From Oceanisphaera profunda (GTDB taxonomy: Bacteria > Pseudomonadota > Gammaproteobacteria > Enterobacterales > Aeromonadaceae): 64,000 nt of DNA. A program made the translations under genes and the position numbers. Numbering within the stretch: position 1 is the stretch's first letter; the number at the start of each line of letters is the position of its first letter. Under the pieces are notes generated by a model. It did no database searches. It was given only the letters and a program-made list of their open reading frames with translations, and had not been told where the DNA came from. The DNA is taken from NCBI RefSeq assembly GCF_002157895.1, contig NZ_CP021377.1, forward strand, positions 2,170,001-2,234,000, read 5' to 3'. Below, one piece after another: positions 1 through 47,321 of the stretch.

Positions 1-224
1 CTGTTTTGGCTTATCCGTAAACCGCTTTGCTCCCTGCAATCCTTGACGTGCGCTTTCCTTGTTCGCTTCCCTTTCCTGATCCTTCAGGCAGTCCTGTCTA
101 TCATCCTGATGCTCAGTGTTCCTCACCGAGTCTGCCTCTTATCCTTGAGGTGTCCGCATCACTGACTGTGAAGTCCTTGCCATCCTGGCCGCCTGTCTTC
201 CTGACGGGCGCTTTGCTCCTTGCC
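1..224 (-). ncRNA. csrB: CsrB-family CsrA-sequestering small RNA (5' part; 3' end lies beyond the window)
   Basis: The minus strand carries the hallmark of CsrB/RsmZ RNAs: twelve AGGA motifs within about 180 nt (TCCT on the plus strand at 40, 56, 74, 80, 92, 104, 120, 142, 174, 183, 199 and 217), plus two GGGA motifs near 31 and 69. Several sit in small hairpin contexts, such as CAGGATG at about 102-108 and GGCCAGGATGGC at 181-192. Known CsrB RNAs bind many CsrA dimers through GGA loops and relieve CsrA repression of translation. The plus-strand ORF and the antisense ORF here are artefacts of the repeated motif. A TATTAT -10 at 230-235 (minus) would start the RNA near 224. The 3' half and terminator are outside the window, so length is unknown. 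Identification rests on motif density, not on alignment. Confidence 0.8.
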
Positions 225-229
225 CAAAC

Positions 230-321
230 ATAATAACCCGCTTATCGACGCTAAGGCGGCGAGTTGCGTACTTAAATCTAACGCTACGTTAAAGTGACTT
301 TTGTTAAGGTGTTGATTTACA
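230..321 (-). promoter_or_regulatory. Putative csrB promoter with a UvrY/GacA-like upstream box
   Basis: Read on the minus strand, TATTAT at 235-230 is a plausible -10 and the corresponding -35 position is poor, as expected for an activator-dependent promoter. About 80-95 bp upstream, at 321-302, the minus strand reads TGTAAATCAACACCTTAACA, an imperfect form of the GacA/UvrY palindrome TGTAAG-N6-CTTACA with one extra base. The BarA/UvrY (GacS/GacA) system is the known activator of csrB genes. Positions 241-410 otherwise contain no gene. Confidence 0.45.
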
Positions 322-410
322 ATGAGTAATAGATAATTGGTGGCGTTAATCTGGGGTAAGAAAGGGACTATGCTGCTTTTTCTTTGCGAGATCTCGCACA
401 CATAAACCAG

Positions 411-941
411 CTAAAGACTGGGCTTTTTCGACATTGGCTGTATTGAGGCTTCGTGATTGAGTAGCCACGCCTTGCGCGTTATGCCGCCTGCGTAGCCGAC
501 TAACTTACCGCTGGCGCCAATTACCCTATGACAAGGAATGATCAGTGCAATGGGATTACGGCTATTGGCCAGCCCCACGGCCCGCATCGCCTTGGGGTTA
601 TTAATACTCAGGGCTATGTCTTTATAACTGCGATGCTCACCATGAGCAATGGTCAGCAGTGCTTGCCACACCTGTTGCTGAAACGCGGTACCTTGCGGAG
701 CCAGCGGTAAATTAAATTGCTGGCGAGAACCGGCAAAGTATTCATCCAACTGCTGACACGCCTCTTGCTGCAAGGGCGTGCTGGGGGCGATCATGGCGGC
801 AACCTCATCACTAAAATGCAGCGCCGTGATCACTTCTTGCTGATTGGCATCAGTGCGGGTTGCGAGCGTGATCCAACCCAATGGGCAGGCTTGAGTGTAA
901 CTGGCTTCAGTATCATTGGCTTGGGAGGAAGAGGTCGACAT
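411..941 (-). CDS. ogt: Methylated-DNA--protein-cysteine S-methyltransferase (Ogt/MGMT type)
   Basis: A suicide DNA-repair protein that transfers the methyl group of O6-methylguanine (and O4-methylthymine) to its own cysteine. The 176-residue protein has the diagnostic active site IIPCHRVI with the acceptor Cys at residue 137, preceded by the helix-turn-helix part (about residues 86-126) containing the NPKAMRAVG and SRNP segments that hold the DNA. The length fits single-domain Ogt (about 170 aa) rather than two-domain Ada. The ATG at 941 has an AGGA ribosome site upstream. Its 3' end faces the csrB promoter region; the gene upstream on the same strand is the NIF3-like ORF, separated by 84 bp of purine-rich repeat, so co-transcription is possible but not shown. 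Confidence 0.93.
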   Translation of the reverse strand: MSTSSSQANDTEASYTQACPLGWITLATRTDANQQEVITALHFSDEVAAMIAPSTPLQQEACQQLDEYFAGSRQQFNLPLAPQGTAFQQQVWQALLTIAHGEHRSYKDIALSINNPKAMRAVGLANSRNPIALIIPCHRVIGASGKLVGYAGGITRKAWLLNHEASIQPMSKKPSL

Positions 942-952
942 AGTGGGTTCCT

Positions 953-1037
953 ATATAGAGTGAGAAGTGAAGGGTGAGGCGTCAAGGCAGGCCGTCTTTG
1001 GCTGGTTCCCTGCACGCTTAACACCTTACTCCTCACT
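953..1037. repeat. Purine-rich GTGAGGAGTGAAG dispersed repeat, inverted pair
   Basis: The left arm (about 957-980) is AGTGAG/AGTGAAGGGTGAGGCG-like and the right arm (about 1022-1036) is its pyrimidine-rich inverse CACCTTACTCCTCAC. The same word family recurs near 1368, 7615, 23505, 23680, 29675-29818, 41368 and 55847-55895. The right arm runs into the stop codon and last codons of the next gene (ending Ser-Glu-Glu). Confidence 0.6.
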
Positions 1038-1352
1038 GAGTATAAGATCACTCAGCTGCCAAACGTCGAAGGCGGGTTCTTCATAAGGGTGGGCGGTTCT
1101 TAGAGCACTAATGGCGGTGCGGATCAGAGCATCATCACACACTAACTCTACTCGTACCTCTGCTACTTGTTCAACAATGCCAGCTTGGCCGATAAAAGGG
1201 TTAGCAGAGGCTAAAGGCTTAAATTGCCCGGTGCCACGGGTTTCAAAGCAGCACTGTTCGTAGTCGCCAATTTTTCCCGCGCCGGTAGCAAACACCGCTG
1301 ATTTTACTTGTTCCAGATGCGACTCAGGTACGAAAAATACTAATTTATACAT
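1026..1352 (-). CDS. NIF3/YqfO-like (CutA-fold) small protein
   Basis: A 108-residue protein resembling the stand-alone form of the insert domain found in YqfO/NIF3 proteins. It opens with YKLVFFVPESHLEQVKSA, has a central GAGKIGDYEQCCFETRGTG segment typical of this family, and ends with RTAHPYEEPAFDVW. The domain has a CutA/PII-like ferredoxin fold; its biochemical role is not established, so no reaction is assigned. No signal peptide or membrane segment is present. The final codons and stop lie inside a purine-rich dispersed repeat, so the last few residues may be repeat-derived. Genomic context (ogt downstream, PhnA-domain gene upstream) does not explain its job. Confidence 0.8.
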   Translation of the reverse strand: MYKLVFFVPESHLEQVKSAVFATGAGKIGDYEQCCFETRGTGQFKPLASANPFIGQAGIVEQVAEVRVELVCDDALIRTAISALRTAHPYEEPAFDVWQLSDLILSEE

Positions 1353-1490
1353 TAGAGACCTGCTTAAAGAATGTGAGGTGTAAGGGGTTAAGCGTAAGAT
1401 AGGCCAGCGCTAAGCTAAAGATAACCTTAAAGGCGGGTTCGCCACTGTATTCTAAAAAATGTATAGGTGAGGGGCAAACGCCAAATTTAT

Positions 1491-1522
1491 AATAGTGAGG
1501 TGTTTGACAACACCTCACTATT
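1491..1522. other. Perfect 14-bp stem-loop in the gap after the PhnA-domain gene
   Basis: AATAGTGAGGTGTT (1491-1504) pairs perfectly with AACACCTCACTATT (1509-1522) around a TGAC loop. No T-run follows on either strand, so it is not a clear intrinsic terminator; the stem sequence belongs to the GTGAGG repeat family. It could act as an RNA-stabilising hairpin downstream of the PhnA-domain gene. Confidence 0.6.
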
Positions 1523-1538
1523 CACCCCTCACTGGTTT

Positions 1539-2111
1539 TTAGACTTTCTTCAAGAACTGCACGGCCAATTGAATTTGTACACCGTTAACGCGGCCACCAA
1601 TGTGGCCTGCTAAACTGGCGTTAAGGCTGATATTTTTCACCGTGGTGCCACGTTTAGCGGTAAAGCCGGCGCCTTTCACGTCTAAGTCTTTAATAATGGT
1701 GACTGAATCACCGGTCTGTAAGCGTACGCCATTGCTATCGAATAAGGCCTCGCCTTCATCTTCTTCGGGCTCGGAAAAACCAATTTCAGCCCATTCTTGT
1801 ACTTCTGGCGGCAGATATAGCATATCCAACAAGTCTTGTGCCCAGCCTTCACCGGACAGCTTTTTTAGGGTGCGCCAAGCCAAAACCTGTACCGCTGGCT
1901 CTGTGCTCCACATGCTATCGTTCAAGCAACGCCAGTGATTTTGATCTTGTGGCGCATCCAATTCTTGCTGGCAAGTTGTGCATAACAGCGCGCAATGTTC
2001 GGCACTGTCTGCCTCATAAGGAGCCACGGCGTGCAGGTCTAAGTTAGCTGTCGCTTTACATAATTCGCAGCTGTGCTCGCTACGGGCCAATAATTGTTGT
2101 TCTATGGACAT
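1539..2111 (-). CDS. PhnA-domain protein (YjdM-like, with N-terminal zinc-ribbon)
   Basis: A 190-residue protein with two parts. The N-terminus (residues 14-50) has two Cys pairs, CELCKA and CTTC, giving a zinc-ribbon/HNH-like motif. The C-terminus (about residues 122-190) is the PhnA domain, an SH3-like barrel with DSNGVRLQTGDSVTIIKDLDVKG and KRGTTVKNI. E. coli YjdM/PhnA is about 110 aa, so this is the longer version common in marine gammaproteobacteria. Despite the name the family is not the phosphonoacetate hydrolase and its function is unknown. The gene is monocistronic: 128 bp of non-coding sequence separate it from the divergent MCE operon, which may share the promoter region. Confidence 0.88.
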   Translation of the reverse strand: MSIEQQLLARSEHSCELCKATANLDLHAVAPYEADSAEHCALLCTTCQQELDAPQDQNHWRCLNDSMWSTEPAVQVLAWRTLKKLSGEGWAQDLLDMLYLPPEVQEWAEIGFSEPEEDEGEALFDSNGVRLQTGDSVTIIKDLDVKGAGFTAKRGTTVKNISLNASLAGHIGGRVNGVQIQLAVQFLKKV

Positions 2112-2239
2112 GATTTATTTTCTCATCTCATGACTAAAAGTGGCAAGATCCTAGCATAAAACCGCCTACTTGTTGTGGTTATAGCCATGATGCCAGACAA
2201 TGTGTAATTGGTAGTAGATGCGTAATAGAGGCCGATTCT

Positions 2240-3364
2240 ATGGAAACCGACAGCTCACCCAGCATAAAGGTACAAGCAGGCTGTGTGCAGATAATAGGCA
2301 GTTGGACTTTAGCCCATTACAGCGAACTCACTCAACGGCTACGCCCCTTGGCAAGCGCGGCGCAAGATGAGCTAACTCAGCTGGATGCCAGCGACTTGAA
2401 TGCCCTGGATACCGCGGGCGCCGCTTTGTTGATTGACCAGCTAGGCATTAGTACTTTTCGGCGGCTATTACCTGAGGCCGAGGCCCTCTCATCGGAGCGG
2501 CAGGCCTTATTATTAGCCGTGCTAGAGGCCATGGATCAAGAGGAACCCACACCTCAAGCACCTAACCGCTGGGCAGATAGTGTGGCTCGCTTAGGGGAGA
2601 ACATGGTGAGCGGCTGGCAGCAGTTTGTGATGTTGCTGGGTTTTATGGGGCTCACGTTAAGCACGCTAGCCCGCACTCTATTTATCCCCGCGCGCTGGCG
2701 CATTACCGCTTTGGTGGCACAGATACAGCAGTGCGGTCTGAATGCGGTGCCCATCGTCGCCTTGCTCACTTTTTTAGTGGGTGCGGTGGTGGCATTTCTG
2801 GGGGCCACCGTATTAGAAAATTTTGGCGCCACTATATATACGGTCGATTTAGTGGCTTATTCGTTTTTACGAGAATTTGGTGTCTTGTTGAGCGCCATTT
2901 TATTGGCTGGGCGCACCGCCAGTGCTTTTACTGCGCAACTGGGCGCCATGAAAGTGAATGAAGAGCTGGATGCACTGCGCACGCAGGGCCTAGATCCCAT
3001 GGAATTACTGGTGTTGCCGCGGATGTTGGCGCTGGTGATCACGCTGCCGCTGCTGACTTTTATCGGCATGTTATCGGGCTTATTTGGTGGCGCCTTAGTG
3101 TGTTTACTGGCGCTGGATATTTCGTTTGCGCAATATATGACAATCTTGCAGCAAGTACCTGTGCAGCATTTATTAGTCGGCTTGGGCAAGGCACCGATTT
3201 TTGCCTTCTTGATAGCGCTAATCGGCTGCTTAGAAGGCTTTAAAGTGCAAGGCAGCGCTCAATCTGTGGGCGAGCACACCACCTCGAGCGTGGTACAGTC
3301 TATTTTCGTGGTAATTTTGCTCGATGCCATTGCGGCACTGTTTCTGATGGAGATGGGATGGTAA
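2240..3364 (+). CDS. MlaE-family lipid ABC permease fused to an N-terminal STAS domain
   Basis: First gene of a four-gene MCE operon. Residues 1 to about 95 form a STAS-like domain (LTQLDASDLNALDTAGAALL resembles MlaB). Residues from about 130 to 374 are an MlaE permease, with the typical VLENFGATIYTVDLVAYSFLR, LLAGRTASAFTAQLGAMKVNEE and DALRTQGLDPMELLVLPR stretches and five or so hydrophobic segments. Canonical Mla has separate MlaB and MlaE; here they are one polypeptide. The predicted role is to move phospholipid or related hydrophobic substrates across the inner membrane together with the ATPase and the MCE protein encoded next. The ATG follows a gap of 128 bp from the divergent PhnA-domain gene. 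Substrate and direction are unknown. Confidence 0.92.
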   Translation: METDSSPSIKVQAGCVQIIGSWTLAHYSELTQRLRPLASAAQDELTQLDASDLNALDTAGAALLIDQLGISTFRRLLPEAEALSSERQALLLAVLEAMDQEEPTPQAPNRWADSVARLGENMVSGWQQFVMLLGFMGLTLSTLARTLFIPARWRITALVAQIQQCGLNAVPIVALLTFLVGAVVAFLGATVLENFGATIYTVDLVAYSFLREFGVLLSAILLAGRTASAFTAQLGAMKVNEELDALRTQGLDPMELLVLPRMLALVITLPLLTFIGMLSGLFGGALVCLLALDISFAQYMTILQQVPVQHLLVGLGKAPIFAFLIALIGCLEGFKVQGSAQSVGEHTTSSVVQSIFVVILLDAIAALFLMEMGW

Positions 3365-17795: not shown

Positions 17796-17808
17796 TTGCA
17801 AGGATGGG
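17796..17808 (+). promoter_or_regulatory. CsrA-like binding site on the csrD ribosome-binding site
   Basis: TTGCAAGGATGG around 17796-17807 contains the CARGGAUG core of the CsrA SELEX consensus (RUACARGGAUGU; 9 of 12 positions). Its AAGG is also the Shine-Dalgarno for the ATG at 17810. CsrA binding here would block csrD translation. Confidence 0.5.
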
Positions 17809-17809
17809 T

Positions 17810-19798
17810 ATGAAATTTACAAACCAGCTTATTACTACCATTAGCTTATGTATGTTGACAGCAGTGGTTATTGTGTTGATTGGCGCCGGCATCAGTTTTT
17901 ATCAGGTGGGGGCTTTGTATCAGCAGCGCCAAGTCGACACTGTGTTACGACTGGTTGACGAGGGCTGGCAGCCAGGCGCCAAGCCTGAAGTGATTGACGT
18001 CTGGCTACCAAAAATACTGGAAGTAGGCGGTATTATCGACTTTACCCTGCTGCGTGATGATATTCCTGTCTATCATTCTACCCGCGTTGATGCGGCGGCC
18101 ACGGCCGGTGATGTGTTTACCATGGAATATGTAGCGCCGTTGGCAGCGGAGGCAAACTTGTCTGCGCGTGTGGTGCTGCGGCCGCCTTTTTATAATATCG
18201 ATCATTCACTTATCGATCTTGCGGGTATTTTAAGCGCTATCGGCTTAGTGTTTGTGGGCTCGTTACTGATGTTGCGCTGGTTTCGCCGCCAGCTCCGCGG
18301 CTTAGAATTATTAGATTTACGTGGTAAATACATACTGCAAGATCAGCTAAATTTATTAGTGCATGACACGCACCTTGAGTGGCCTCATCAAGCTAGCCAA
18401 GCGCTCGATAAGTTATTACTGGATCTTAATAATGCCAGTAAAGAGCGCAGTCGTTTTGACTCTTTTATTCGCGCCAATGTGTTTGTTGATAAAAGAATCG
18501 GTATCGGTAATCGGGTATTTTTTGATAATCGTCTAGAAGCGGCGCTTAATGACTCTACCGATCATGGCGGCGCGCTCTTATTAGTGGAAATTCAAGATTT
18601 AGAGCAAATTAATTATCATTTTGGCTATGAACGTGGCGATGAAATACTCACGGCTGCGGCTATTTATATGGGCCATTTTGTACGCGGTATCTCCGGCGCC
18701 TTACAAGCGCGTTATACGGGCACGACCTTCGCCTTGCTATTACCCAATACCGTGGAAAGTGAGGCCCAAGAGGCGGCGCGCCAAGTGATGAAATTATTAC
18801 GCCGTCTTAACTGGCCAGATGAAATTACGGATCCGGCTATTTATATTGGTGGCGTCTGTTTTCGTTTTGGTGAGTCGATGTTACAAATACGTGAAGAAGC
18901 CGAGCTGGCGCTACGCAGTGCCGAGCTGCAGGGCGGCGACGGCTACTTTATGTATTACAAAGGCGTCACCGAAGAAAGCATGGGCAAAGGCACGGTACGT
19001 TGGCGCACTCTGCTCAGCCGAGTGTTAGCCCAAGAAAAAATTCAGCTCGACCGCCAAGGTATTTATCAAGCCCCGGAGCAGGCGCCTGTGATGTATGAAT
19101 TATTGGCGCGGATTCAGGATGAGCAAGGTCGAGAGTTATCGGCGAGACAGTTTTTTCCGATGGCGGAAAAATGTGGACTGCTCCAAGAGTTGGATCGCAA
19201 TATTATCTCTCAAGCGCTAGTACGCTTACCCGATACCGAGCCGGGTATTATGTTGGCGGTTAACCTGTCGGCAACCAGCTTATTACAGCGTAAGTTTTAT
19301 AACTGGCTGCTATTTGAATTAATGCAGCACCCTAAGTCACAACTAAATAAGCTAGTGATTGATTTATCTGAAGCACAGGTGAGTCGCCATTTTCAAGCCT
19401 TGGTGAAACCGCTGAACGCCCTAAAGGCATTAGGGTGTCAGTTGGCGGTAGACCATGCAGGCCAAGATGTAGTGAGTACCCAGTATGTGTCTGACTATCA
19501 ATTGGATTATCTTAAACTGCATCCCAGCTTAGTACATGACATTAATACCAAGCCCATTAGCCAAATGGCGGTTAGCAGCCTCATTGGTAATTGTGCGGGC
19601 AGTAATACTAAGGTGATCGCCATGGGGGTAGAAACCAAAGCCGAATGGCAGTGTTTATCCCAACTGGGCGTTTATGGCGGCCAAGGCTACTTTTTTGCCT
19701 ATCCTGAGTCGGCCACAGCTAAAGATAGGAGCGTTACTCAAGAGCCAGCAGCGACTAATAGGCCCTCAGCCAGGAGCAAGCTGACTGCGAGTAGATAA
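17810..19798 (+). CDS. csrD: RNase E specificity factor CsrD (degenerate GGDEF-EAL protein)
   Basis: CsrD targets the CsrB/C RNAs for RNase E decay and so lowers free-sponge levels; it neither makes nor degrades c-di-GMP. The protein (662 aa) has an N-terminal membrane helix (about 6-30), a periplasmic stretch, a second helix (about 135-155), a HAMP-like coiled segment, a GGDEF-like domain whose catalytic loop is GTTFA, and an EAL-like domain in which EAL is ELL and the metal residues are not conserved. This double degeneracy and its place beside mreB are the signature of CsrD (yhdA). I prefer the ATG at 17810 (MKFTN) over 17804 because of spacing to AAGG. A cognate CsrB-like RNA lies at the left end of the window. 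Confidence 0.92.
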   Translation: MKFTNQLITTISLCMLTAVVIVLIGAGISFYQVGALYQQRQVDTVLRLVDEGWQPGAKPEVIDVWLPKILEVGGIIDFTLLRDDIPVYHSTRVDAAATAGDVFTMEYVAPLAAEANLSARVVLRPPFYNIDHSLIDLAGILSAIGLVFVGSLLMLRWFRRQLRGLELLDLRGKYILQDQLNLLVHDTHLEWPHQASQALDKLLLDLNNASKERSRFDSFIRANVFVDKRIGIGNRVFFDNRLEAALNDSTDHGGALLLVEIQDLEQINYHFGYERGDEILTAAAIYMGHFVRGISGALQARYTGTTFALLLPNTVESEAQEAARQVMKLLRRLNWPDEITDPAIYIGGVCFRFGESMLQIREEAELALRSAELQGGDGYFMYYKGVTEESMGKGTVRWRTLLSRVLAQEKIQLDRQGIYQAPEQAPVMYELLARIQDEQGRELSARQFFPMAEKCGLLQELDRNIISQALVRLPDTEPGIMLAVNLSATSLLQRKFYNWLLFELMQHPKSQLNKLVIDLSEAQVSRHFQALVKPLNALKALGCQLAVDHAGQDVVSTQYVSDYQLDYLKLHPSLVHDINTKPISQMAVSSLIGNCAGSNTKVIAMGVETKAEWQCLSQLGVYGGQGYFFAYPESATAKDRSVTQEPAATNRPSARSKLTASR

Positions 19799-46084: not shown

Positions 46085-46123
46085 AAAAAAGGGGTTAGGT
46101 GCTTTGCATCTAACCCCTTTTTT
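46085..46123 (+). terminator. Intrinsic terminator after murA
   Basis: GGGGTTAGGTGC (46091-46102) pairs with GCATCTAACCCC (46106-46117) with one G-T wobble and TTT loop, followed by TTTTTTT and preceded by six A. Confidence 0.92.
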
Positions 46124-46130
46124 ATCTTCT

Positions 46131-46198
46131 GTAGGGTCGAATTCATTCGACCTCTTTAATGTCTGGCATCATATTTGGTCGAATAAATTCGACCCTAC
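46131..46198. repeat. REPIN-like inverted repeat of the GTCGAAT family
   Basis: GTAGGGTCGAATTCATTCGA (46131-46150, plus CC) and its inverse ending GAATAAATTCGACCCTAC (46181-46198) form 22-bp arms with 21 matches around a 24-bp centre. Each arm is itself a palindrome (GGTCGAAT-ATTCGACC). It lies between the murA terminator and the degS stop, 5 bp from the latter. Confidence 0.8.
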
Positions 46199-46202
46199 AC
46201 GC

Positions 46203-47321
46203 TCAGCGCAAGCGCTGAAAACGTTTATCTTCTTCAATATTAATGGGTAAGGTCATCAGTTTACCTTGGCGCAGCACGGTGGCGATTATAGTGCTGCCAG
46301 GCTTGGTTTCGGCAATCATATCCATGGCGTGACGAGTATTACGAATCGGCTCACCGTCTAATTTCAGTAACACATCCTCGACCAAGATACCGGCCTTGGC
46401 GGCAGGGCCGGTTTCGTTAATGCCTTCTACAAATAAGCCGGTACGCTCACCCATTTTCAGTAATTGCGCCATTAGCGGCGGTATATCGGCACCGCTTATA
46501 CCTAAGTAACCGCGGATCACGCGGCCGTGGCTGATCAGCTCTTGCATAATGCGCTGGGCTAACGCGTAGGGAATAGCAAAGTTAATACCGTAGCTTTCTT
46601 GATGGGCCAAGCTTTGAAAAGAGGCGGTATTAATACCGACGATTTCCCCGTAGACGTTAATGAGCGCGCCGCCGGAGTTACCGGCATTAATGGCGGCGTC
46701 GGTTTGCAGTAAGTCTTGGCGGCCATTGCTGTCTGGCCCCATGCTCGATAAGCCAGAGCGGCCCGTGGCACTAATAATGCCTTGGGTAATGGTTTGCCCC
46801 ACGTTATAAGGGTTGCCGATAGCCAGTACAATATCGCCCACTTGCGGCGCCAGTTCATTGTCTTGTGGGATCACCGGTAATTGCTCGGCACTAATCTTTA
46901 ACACCGCTAAATCCGTGGGTACATCAAAGCCGGTGACTTCGCCGTTAAGAATGCGGCCATCTTGCAGCGCCACTATTACCTGATCCGCGTCGGCGATCAC
47001 ATGATAATTTGTTAACACATAACCTTGGTCGGTCATGATCACGCCTGAGCCTAAACTGGTGGAGCTTAGCTCGGGTGCGGCATCGCCGCGCTGAAAACTG
47101 CGAGTGTAAATATTGACCACGGCGGGGCCGGCACGGTTGGCCGCATAGGAGAAGCTGGAGACGCCCACCTGTTGGTTGCGCCACCAATGTTCAAAAGGCT
47201 GAGTCTTAAGTTGCGGGAACACCACCAATAGCAATAACGCCATCAGTATCCCGAAGGCAACGGCCTGAACAATAAACTTTAGCGGTGCAAGTAAGCGCAT
47301 AGAGAATTTGGCTGTTAACAA
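46203..47321 (-). CDS. degS: Outer-membrane-stress protease DegS
   Basis: Membrane-anchored periplasmic serine protease that starts RseA cleavage in the sigma-E response. 372 residues: N-terminal helix (about 16-36), trypsin domain with VLTNYHVIAD (His), TDLAVLKI (Asp) and GNSGGALIN (Ser), then one PDZ domain (about 270-360). A single PDZ and the anchor distinguish it from DegQ. It lies downstream of degQ on the same strand. Confidence 0.95.
   Translation of the reverse strand: MLTAKFSMRLLAPLKFIVQAVAFGILMALLLLVVFPQLKTQPFEHWWRNQQVGVSSFSYAANRAGPAVVNIYTRSFQRGDAAPELSSTSLGSGVIMTDQGYVLTNYHVIADADQVIVALQDGRILNGEVTGFDVPTDLAVLKISAEQLPVIPQDNELAPQVGDIVLAIGNPYNVGQTITQGIISATGRSGLSSMGPDSNGRQDLLQTDAAINAGNSGGALINVYGEIVGINTASFQSLAHQESYGINFAIPYALAQRIMQELISHGRVIRGYLGISGADIPPLMAQLLKMGERTGLFVEGINETGPAAKAGILVEDVLLKLDGEPIRNTRHAMDMIAETKPGSTIIATVLRQGKLMTLPINIEEDKRFQRLR

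Follow-up and report, generated by a model that had tools for sequence, protein, structure and literature searches.

A csrB-type RNA gene beside ogt in an Oceanisphaera-like genome, scoring below the Rfam gathering threshold

The stretch of DNA analysed here, referred to as the window, comprises 64,000 nucleotides (positions 2170001-2234000) of an Oceanisphaera-like genome (Aeromonadaceae) that belongs to a marine-type bacterium and consists of one contig of 3,508,860 bases. Apart from the entry of the genome itself, the closest Ogt of a named organism is that of Oceanisphaera pacifica, at 78%. At its left edge, a csrB-type small RNA lies on the minus strand, flanked by ogt and by a convergent, dacA-type D-Ala-D-Ala carboxypeptidase gene located left of the window (Table 1). 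The RNA has a total length of ~258 nt (G000:C1 2169966-2170223, minus), with its 5' end placed from the -10 box, and its 3'-most ~35 nt (2169966-2170000) fall beyond the window edge. The minus strand of 1-244 carries 16 GGA motifs and, exactly as the initial annotation had counted within ~180 nt, 12 AGGA motifs, which start at 220, 202, 186, 177, 145, 123, 107, 95, 83, 77, 59 and 43 and are spread over 178 nt. Dinucleotide shuffles of this region contain 3.5 AGGA on average and 11 at most, with 12 being reached in none of 5000, and elsewhere in the window any 180-nt stretch holds at most 4, both strands counted. RNAs of this kind have reportedly been predicted by motif density, in work of 2006 by Kulkarni. 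Similar plasmid DNA was sought for the csrB region and none was found; likewise, no publication on this Oceanisphaera csrB appeared among the matches listed in the open-licence literature, as judged by titles and abstract openings.

Table 1. Features of the window that bear on the csrB-type RNA (window coordinates)
Feature	Position	Strand	Remarks
csrB-type sRNA (class B copy)	1..223	minus	~223 nt of RNA inside the window
-10 box TATTAT	230..235	minus	TA.TAT invariant in 22/22 class B copies, the window's included
IHF-like site AATCAACACCTTA	305..317	minus	pattern WATCARNNNNTTR
likely UvrY/GacA box TGTGCGAGATCTCGCAAA	383..400	minus	perfect 14-nt palindrome at 385-398
ogt-type methylated-DNA-protein-cysteine methyltransferase	411..941	minus	upstream neighbour, same strand as csrB
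CsrD-type protein	17804..19798	plus	GAPES4-GGDEF-EAL; best NCBIfam match RNase E specificity factor CsrD; candidate turnover factor

The reading of these motifs as a CsrB-type sponge RNA agrees with its orthologues, with covariation and with the Rfam CsrB model (RF00018), the check that had been recommended for the minus strand. A permissive search of window positions 1-3000 gave 25.4 bits, with the 3' end lost at the window edge, and the whole-genome search gave 42.8 bits (2169959-2170244, minus; E 2.9e-10) over model positions 1-356, which is the full length. The latter score lies below the RF00018 gathering score of 71 bits. The ogt-linked csrB is absent from the Rfam search at the gathering threshold and was also missed by a family-wide search with stricter filters, in which the sole match listed for this genome is a second csrB, beside sseA (1550392-1550692, minus), with 89.4 bits and hence above the gathering score. 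To this extent the claim that the RNA is visible only by motif density nearly holds, but the sub-threshold search and the orthologues show csrB plainly. Because 11 of the 22 copies at the same position (class B below, the window's own counted among the 22) pass the gathering score, the ogt-linked csrB is filed here as a homologue scoring under a curated threshold. Among the other ogt-linked copies, those of G002 and G011 score as low as 40.9 and 35.6 bits, compared with 74.2 bits in G012, and that of G021 is unlisted.

A covariance model of the locus itself, termed R1, was built from 21 class B sequences, the window's own copy among them. With R1, the ogt-linked csrB scores 221.8 bits (L112 9965-10224) on a model built partly from that sequence, and its sseA-linked counterpart in the genome, which is outside the training set, scores 190.6 bits. 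One other match alone was obtained in the window, with 27 bits; this stretch (46086-46238, minus) scores mainly through a strong terminator-like hairpin that comes after an inverted repeat, GTAGGGTCGAAT...ATTCGACCCTAC. A weak RF00018 match at G002:C1:183070 was dropped, as its 18.1 bits with R1 are fewer than the 27 bits of that terminator-bearing stretch, and so were the remaining R1 matches that scored no more than 35 bits, many of which are terminators read from either strand. A match to the Rfam family BTnc060 at 1495-1554, far under its gathering score, was taken as chance.

Matches to RF00018 are present in all 23 genus genomes and in all 75 family genomes, those 23 included. Grouped by the genes on either side, the copies in the genus form class A (DUF2007/sseA), class B (ogt/carboxypeptidase gene, the window's) and class C (after thrC). 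With a floor of 80 bits, R1 retained 61 matches at 81.9 bits or more, namely 22 of class A, 22 of class B and 17 of class C, corresponding to at least 22, at least 22 and at least 17 of the 23 genomes; R1 scored at most 85 candidates per genome (the window's genome, G000, has 398), and absences by R1 are not complete. In the R1 search, no class B copy was found in G018. Class C was not found after thrC or with R1 in G021, G012 and G002, and in G000 inspection by eye after thrC and R1 both yielded no third csrB; thrC was not found in G011 and G019, genomes without a class C match. Within G000, the class A and class B RNAs are 55.5% identical.

Two further arrangements were observed in these genomes. 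After thrC in G000, G021 and G002, repeated palindromic units (GTCATACCGG... and GAGATCCTGA...TCAGGA...) occupy the place where relatives carry class C, in the first 1500 bases of L186 (G000) and at the same place in L187 and L188, and G012 is without such repeats. In other members of the family (G031:C36, G050:C5, G052:C36 and G062:C38), CsrB matches occur in same-strand pairs separated by a few hundred bases, apparently as tandem csrB genes.

The ogt-linked csrB folds with a z-score of -3.66, and several of its many GGA motifs lie in hairpin loops. Alignment A1 comprises 21 of the 22 class B sequences, the window's own included. That of G012 (L115 2989-3349) was left out because an apparent internal duplication of a GGA-hairpin block (GGACACCTCAAGGATTGAGAG... 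repeated) brings the RNA to 361 nt. In the consensus structure, which was obtained by RNAalifold on A1 itself and is somewhat favoured for that reason, 96.7% of cells are paired, and double changes with the pair kept occur in 26 of 47 pairs, four invariant long-range pairs being kept out of the count. None of 500 shuffles matches the alignment in pairing, in two double-change measures or in the covariation score, and 22 of 500 match it in further pair types; when the structures are slid by 1-3 columns, 35-45% of cells pair (maximum 45.3%). The sequence left of the window edge, to which the initial annotation had looked for further AGGA motifs and a terminator, contains no further AGGA within the RNA, but it does supply a terminator-type hairpin. 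On the RNA strand this extension reads AAAAAGGGGCAACTTAGGTTGCCCCTTTT and forms a strong hairpin in the fold, GC-rich with A/U flanks, which is kept with covariation in the 21 sequences (helices 9 and 10). A simple terminator scan did not list it, presumably because its T run is taken up in stem pairing.

The promoter upstream of the RNA has a weak -35 region, poor by eye, which fits the activator-type promoter proposed in the initial annotation, and a simple sigma-70 scan called no minus-strand promoters upstream of csrB. The site at 305-317 was named from WATCARNNNNTTR, which we take to be the IHF pattern. In its strict form this pattern is found in 10 of the 22 class B copies, the window's included, where its position relative to the -10 end is invariably -86 to -88, and it occurs 6 times on both strands of the 64-kb window. 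A strict scan of the window for the UvrY consensus, with up to three mismatches, gave no match upstream of the csrB RNA, and the box at 383-400 was found afterwards through orthologue comparison. Counted from the -10 end, its core stands at -163 to -167 in all class B copies but G012 and G002, where no box is recognisable (20 of 22, the pattern being widened for G011), and its palindrome is among 6 perfect even palindromes of at least 14 nt in the window.

The near GacA/UvrY palindrome of the initial annotation, taken to be 302-321, does exist as sequence, but it overlaps the IHF-like site. It has at best 4 mismatches to TGTAAG-N6-CTTACA, compared with 5 for the box at 383-400, or 4 if its register is moved by two bases, such that mismatch counting alone does not favour 383-400; this box is preferred because of its conservation and of the comparison with E. 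coli csrB. In the E. coli sequence that was fetched, a box TGTGAGAGATCTCTTACA lies at -191 and an IHF pattern AATCAAAATGTTG at -105, and in the window the box TGTGCGAGATCTCGCAAA lies at -177 and the IHF-like site AATCAACACCTTA at -94, so that box and IHF-pattern site are 83 nt apart, start to start, in the window and 86 nt apart in E. coli. Both genes have a far-upstream palindromic box with a GAGATCTC core, but the window's box lacks the full TGTAAG/CTTACA ends of the E. coli one. The UvrY site of the first reading was thus probably placed on what better reads as an IHF-like site, with the likelier box farther upstream.

The other two classes also carry candidate upstream sites. As read by eye from a list, 19 of the 22 class A copies have a TGTNNGAGATC box upstream (20 with a looser scripted pattern), and the scripted pattern gives a box for 14 of the 16 class C copies. 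Four of the 22 class A regions contain the IHF pattern, which is found three times at -60/-61 and once at -44 from the start of the Rfam match; none of the 16 class C regions scanned has it, the class C copy of G013 being outside the scan. The four class A regions weaken the notion that the IHF site is kept at the ogt-linked copy only.

Partners of a CsrB RNA are encoded in the same genome. There is one csrA gene, and a UvrY-family regulator scoring 415.2 bits (cut-off 280) is located directly upstream of uvrC. The protein of 17804-19798 scores 582.5 bits with CsrD (NF008281), by far its best family, which is under the equivalog cut-off of 663, a value passed in none of the 23 genus genomes. 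Its gene lies 17.6 kb from csrB, in keeping with the earlier statement that CsrD is encoded in the same window within 18 kb, and the distance between class B csrB and csrD is 12.0-30.3 kb in all 19 genomes with both on one contig, a count that leaves out G004, G011 and G019 (different contigs) and G018 (class B not found). This linkage is unlike the situation in E. coli, where csrD is far from csrB. By itself it says little on function, since neither product needs to work close to its gene.

Could the ogt-linked csrB be a decaying copy that no longer works, with the sseA-linked copy doing the job? Its lower RF00018 score (42.8 versus 89.4 bits) would suit such a state, and so would the even greater likeness of the sseA-linked RNA between G000 and G021, the closest relative found (99.6% identical), as well as the thrC-linked third csrB that was not found here and is present in at least 17 of the 23 genus genomes. 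Between the same two genomes, however, the ogt-linked RNA is 97.3% identical, as against 87.1% for ogt, 83.4% for the 187 nt upstream and 55.0% for the 149 nt downstream; the G021 copy likewise has 16 GGA, the -10 box is kept, and low scores are common to the same locus elsewhere, the copy of G012 apart. Decay is therefore considered very unlikely. Still less credible, to the point of being nearly dismissed, is a coding sequence in which the AGGA motifs arose by chance. The csrB region is indeed overlapped on the minus strand by open frames of 42, 74 and 80 aa, but A1 contains indels that are not multiples of three, and the covarying base pairs, the AGGA excess and the Rfam match likewise speak against coding.

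Given the homology, the conserved position, the covarying structure, the conservation exceeding that of flanking DNA, the conserved upstream sites and the presence of CsrA, UvrY, CsrD and a second CsrB, the csrB gene at the window edge is very likely functional; two csrB genes were found in the genome. Judged from its sequence, the ogt-linked csrB very likely belongs to a known RNA family and works by an ordinary mechanism. By analogy, we infer its transcription, its binding of CsrA, the binding of UvrY and IHF, and its route of decay. Phosphorylated UvrY would bind the box, centred at about -168 of csrB, and IHF would bend the DNA between this box and the promoter, the two together switching on a promoter whose -35 is weak. 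The ~258-nt RNA would fold into short hairpins and linkers displaying 16 GGA motifs and bind several CsrA dimers, by which mRNAs would be freed from CsrA. The terminator-type hairpin would end the RNA, and RNase E, helped by CsrD, may cut just before it, as in E. coli. In E. coli CsrB, the cut that is needed falls immediately ahead of the terminator, where the RNA is unstructured and two CsrA sites are adjacent (PMC5027483); here, the consensus fold leaves the bases between the last GGA hairpin and the terminator unpaired, but in the single-sequence minimum-energy fold they are partly paired with bases upstream.

Like CsrB of E. coli K-12 (RF00018), the ogt-linked csrB encodes an sRNA that is rich in GGA, carries GGAs in its hairpin loops and has a terminator hairpin. 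It differs in length (~258 versus 369 nt), in the number of GGA motifs (16 versus 22, the latter as given in PMC5027483) and in its neighbours, which are ogt and the carboxypeptidase gene here and yqcC and syd in E. coli. Vibrio csrB, as described in PMC6262261, likewise occurs in several copies belonging to different synteny groups that were gained and lost among relatives, but the loci here are others (sseA, ogt and thrC), two of the three being found in the window's genome. Pf1 of Pseudoalteromonas, a marine gammaproteobacterium, is likewise a CsrB-family sRNA, with ~21 GGA motifs and GGA-bearing loops (PMC9927453); it is described there as scarcely similar in sequence to E. coli CsrB, whereas the ogt-linked csrB aligns to the full RF00018 model.

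As the IHF pattern is commonest at ogt-linked copies, rarer at sseA-linked ones and not found at thrC-linked ones, it is conceivable, though doubtful, that the csrB genes of the genus, up to three and most with a UvrY-type box, divide labour through IHF, and that the csrD linkage is under selection. This unevenness recalls the difference between E. coli csrB and csrC, both of which have an 18-nt UvrY palindrome far upstream while IHF is needed at csrB and not at csrC (PMC4682653). The loci with and without an IHF-like site would offer a natural contrast for that reported difference (PMC4682653). A csrB gene can score under the Rfam gathering threshold even though it is conserved more strongly than its neighbours, and since half of the class B copies (11 of 22) are under the cut-off or unlisted, default annotation may undercount csrB copies here.
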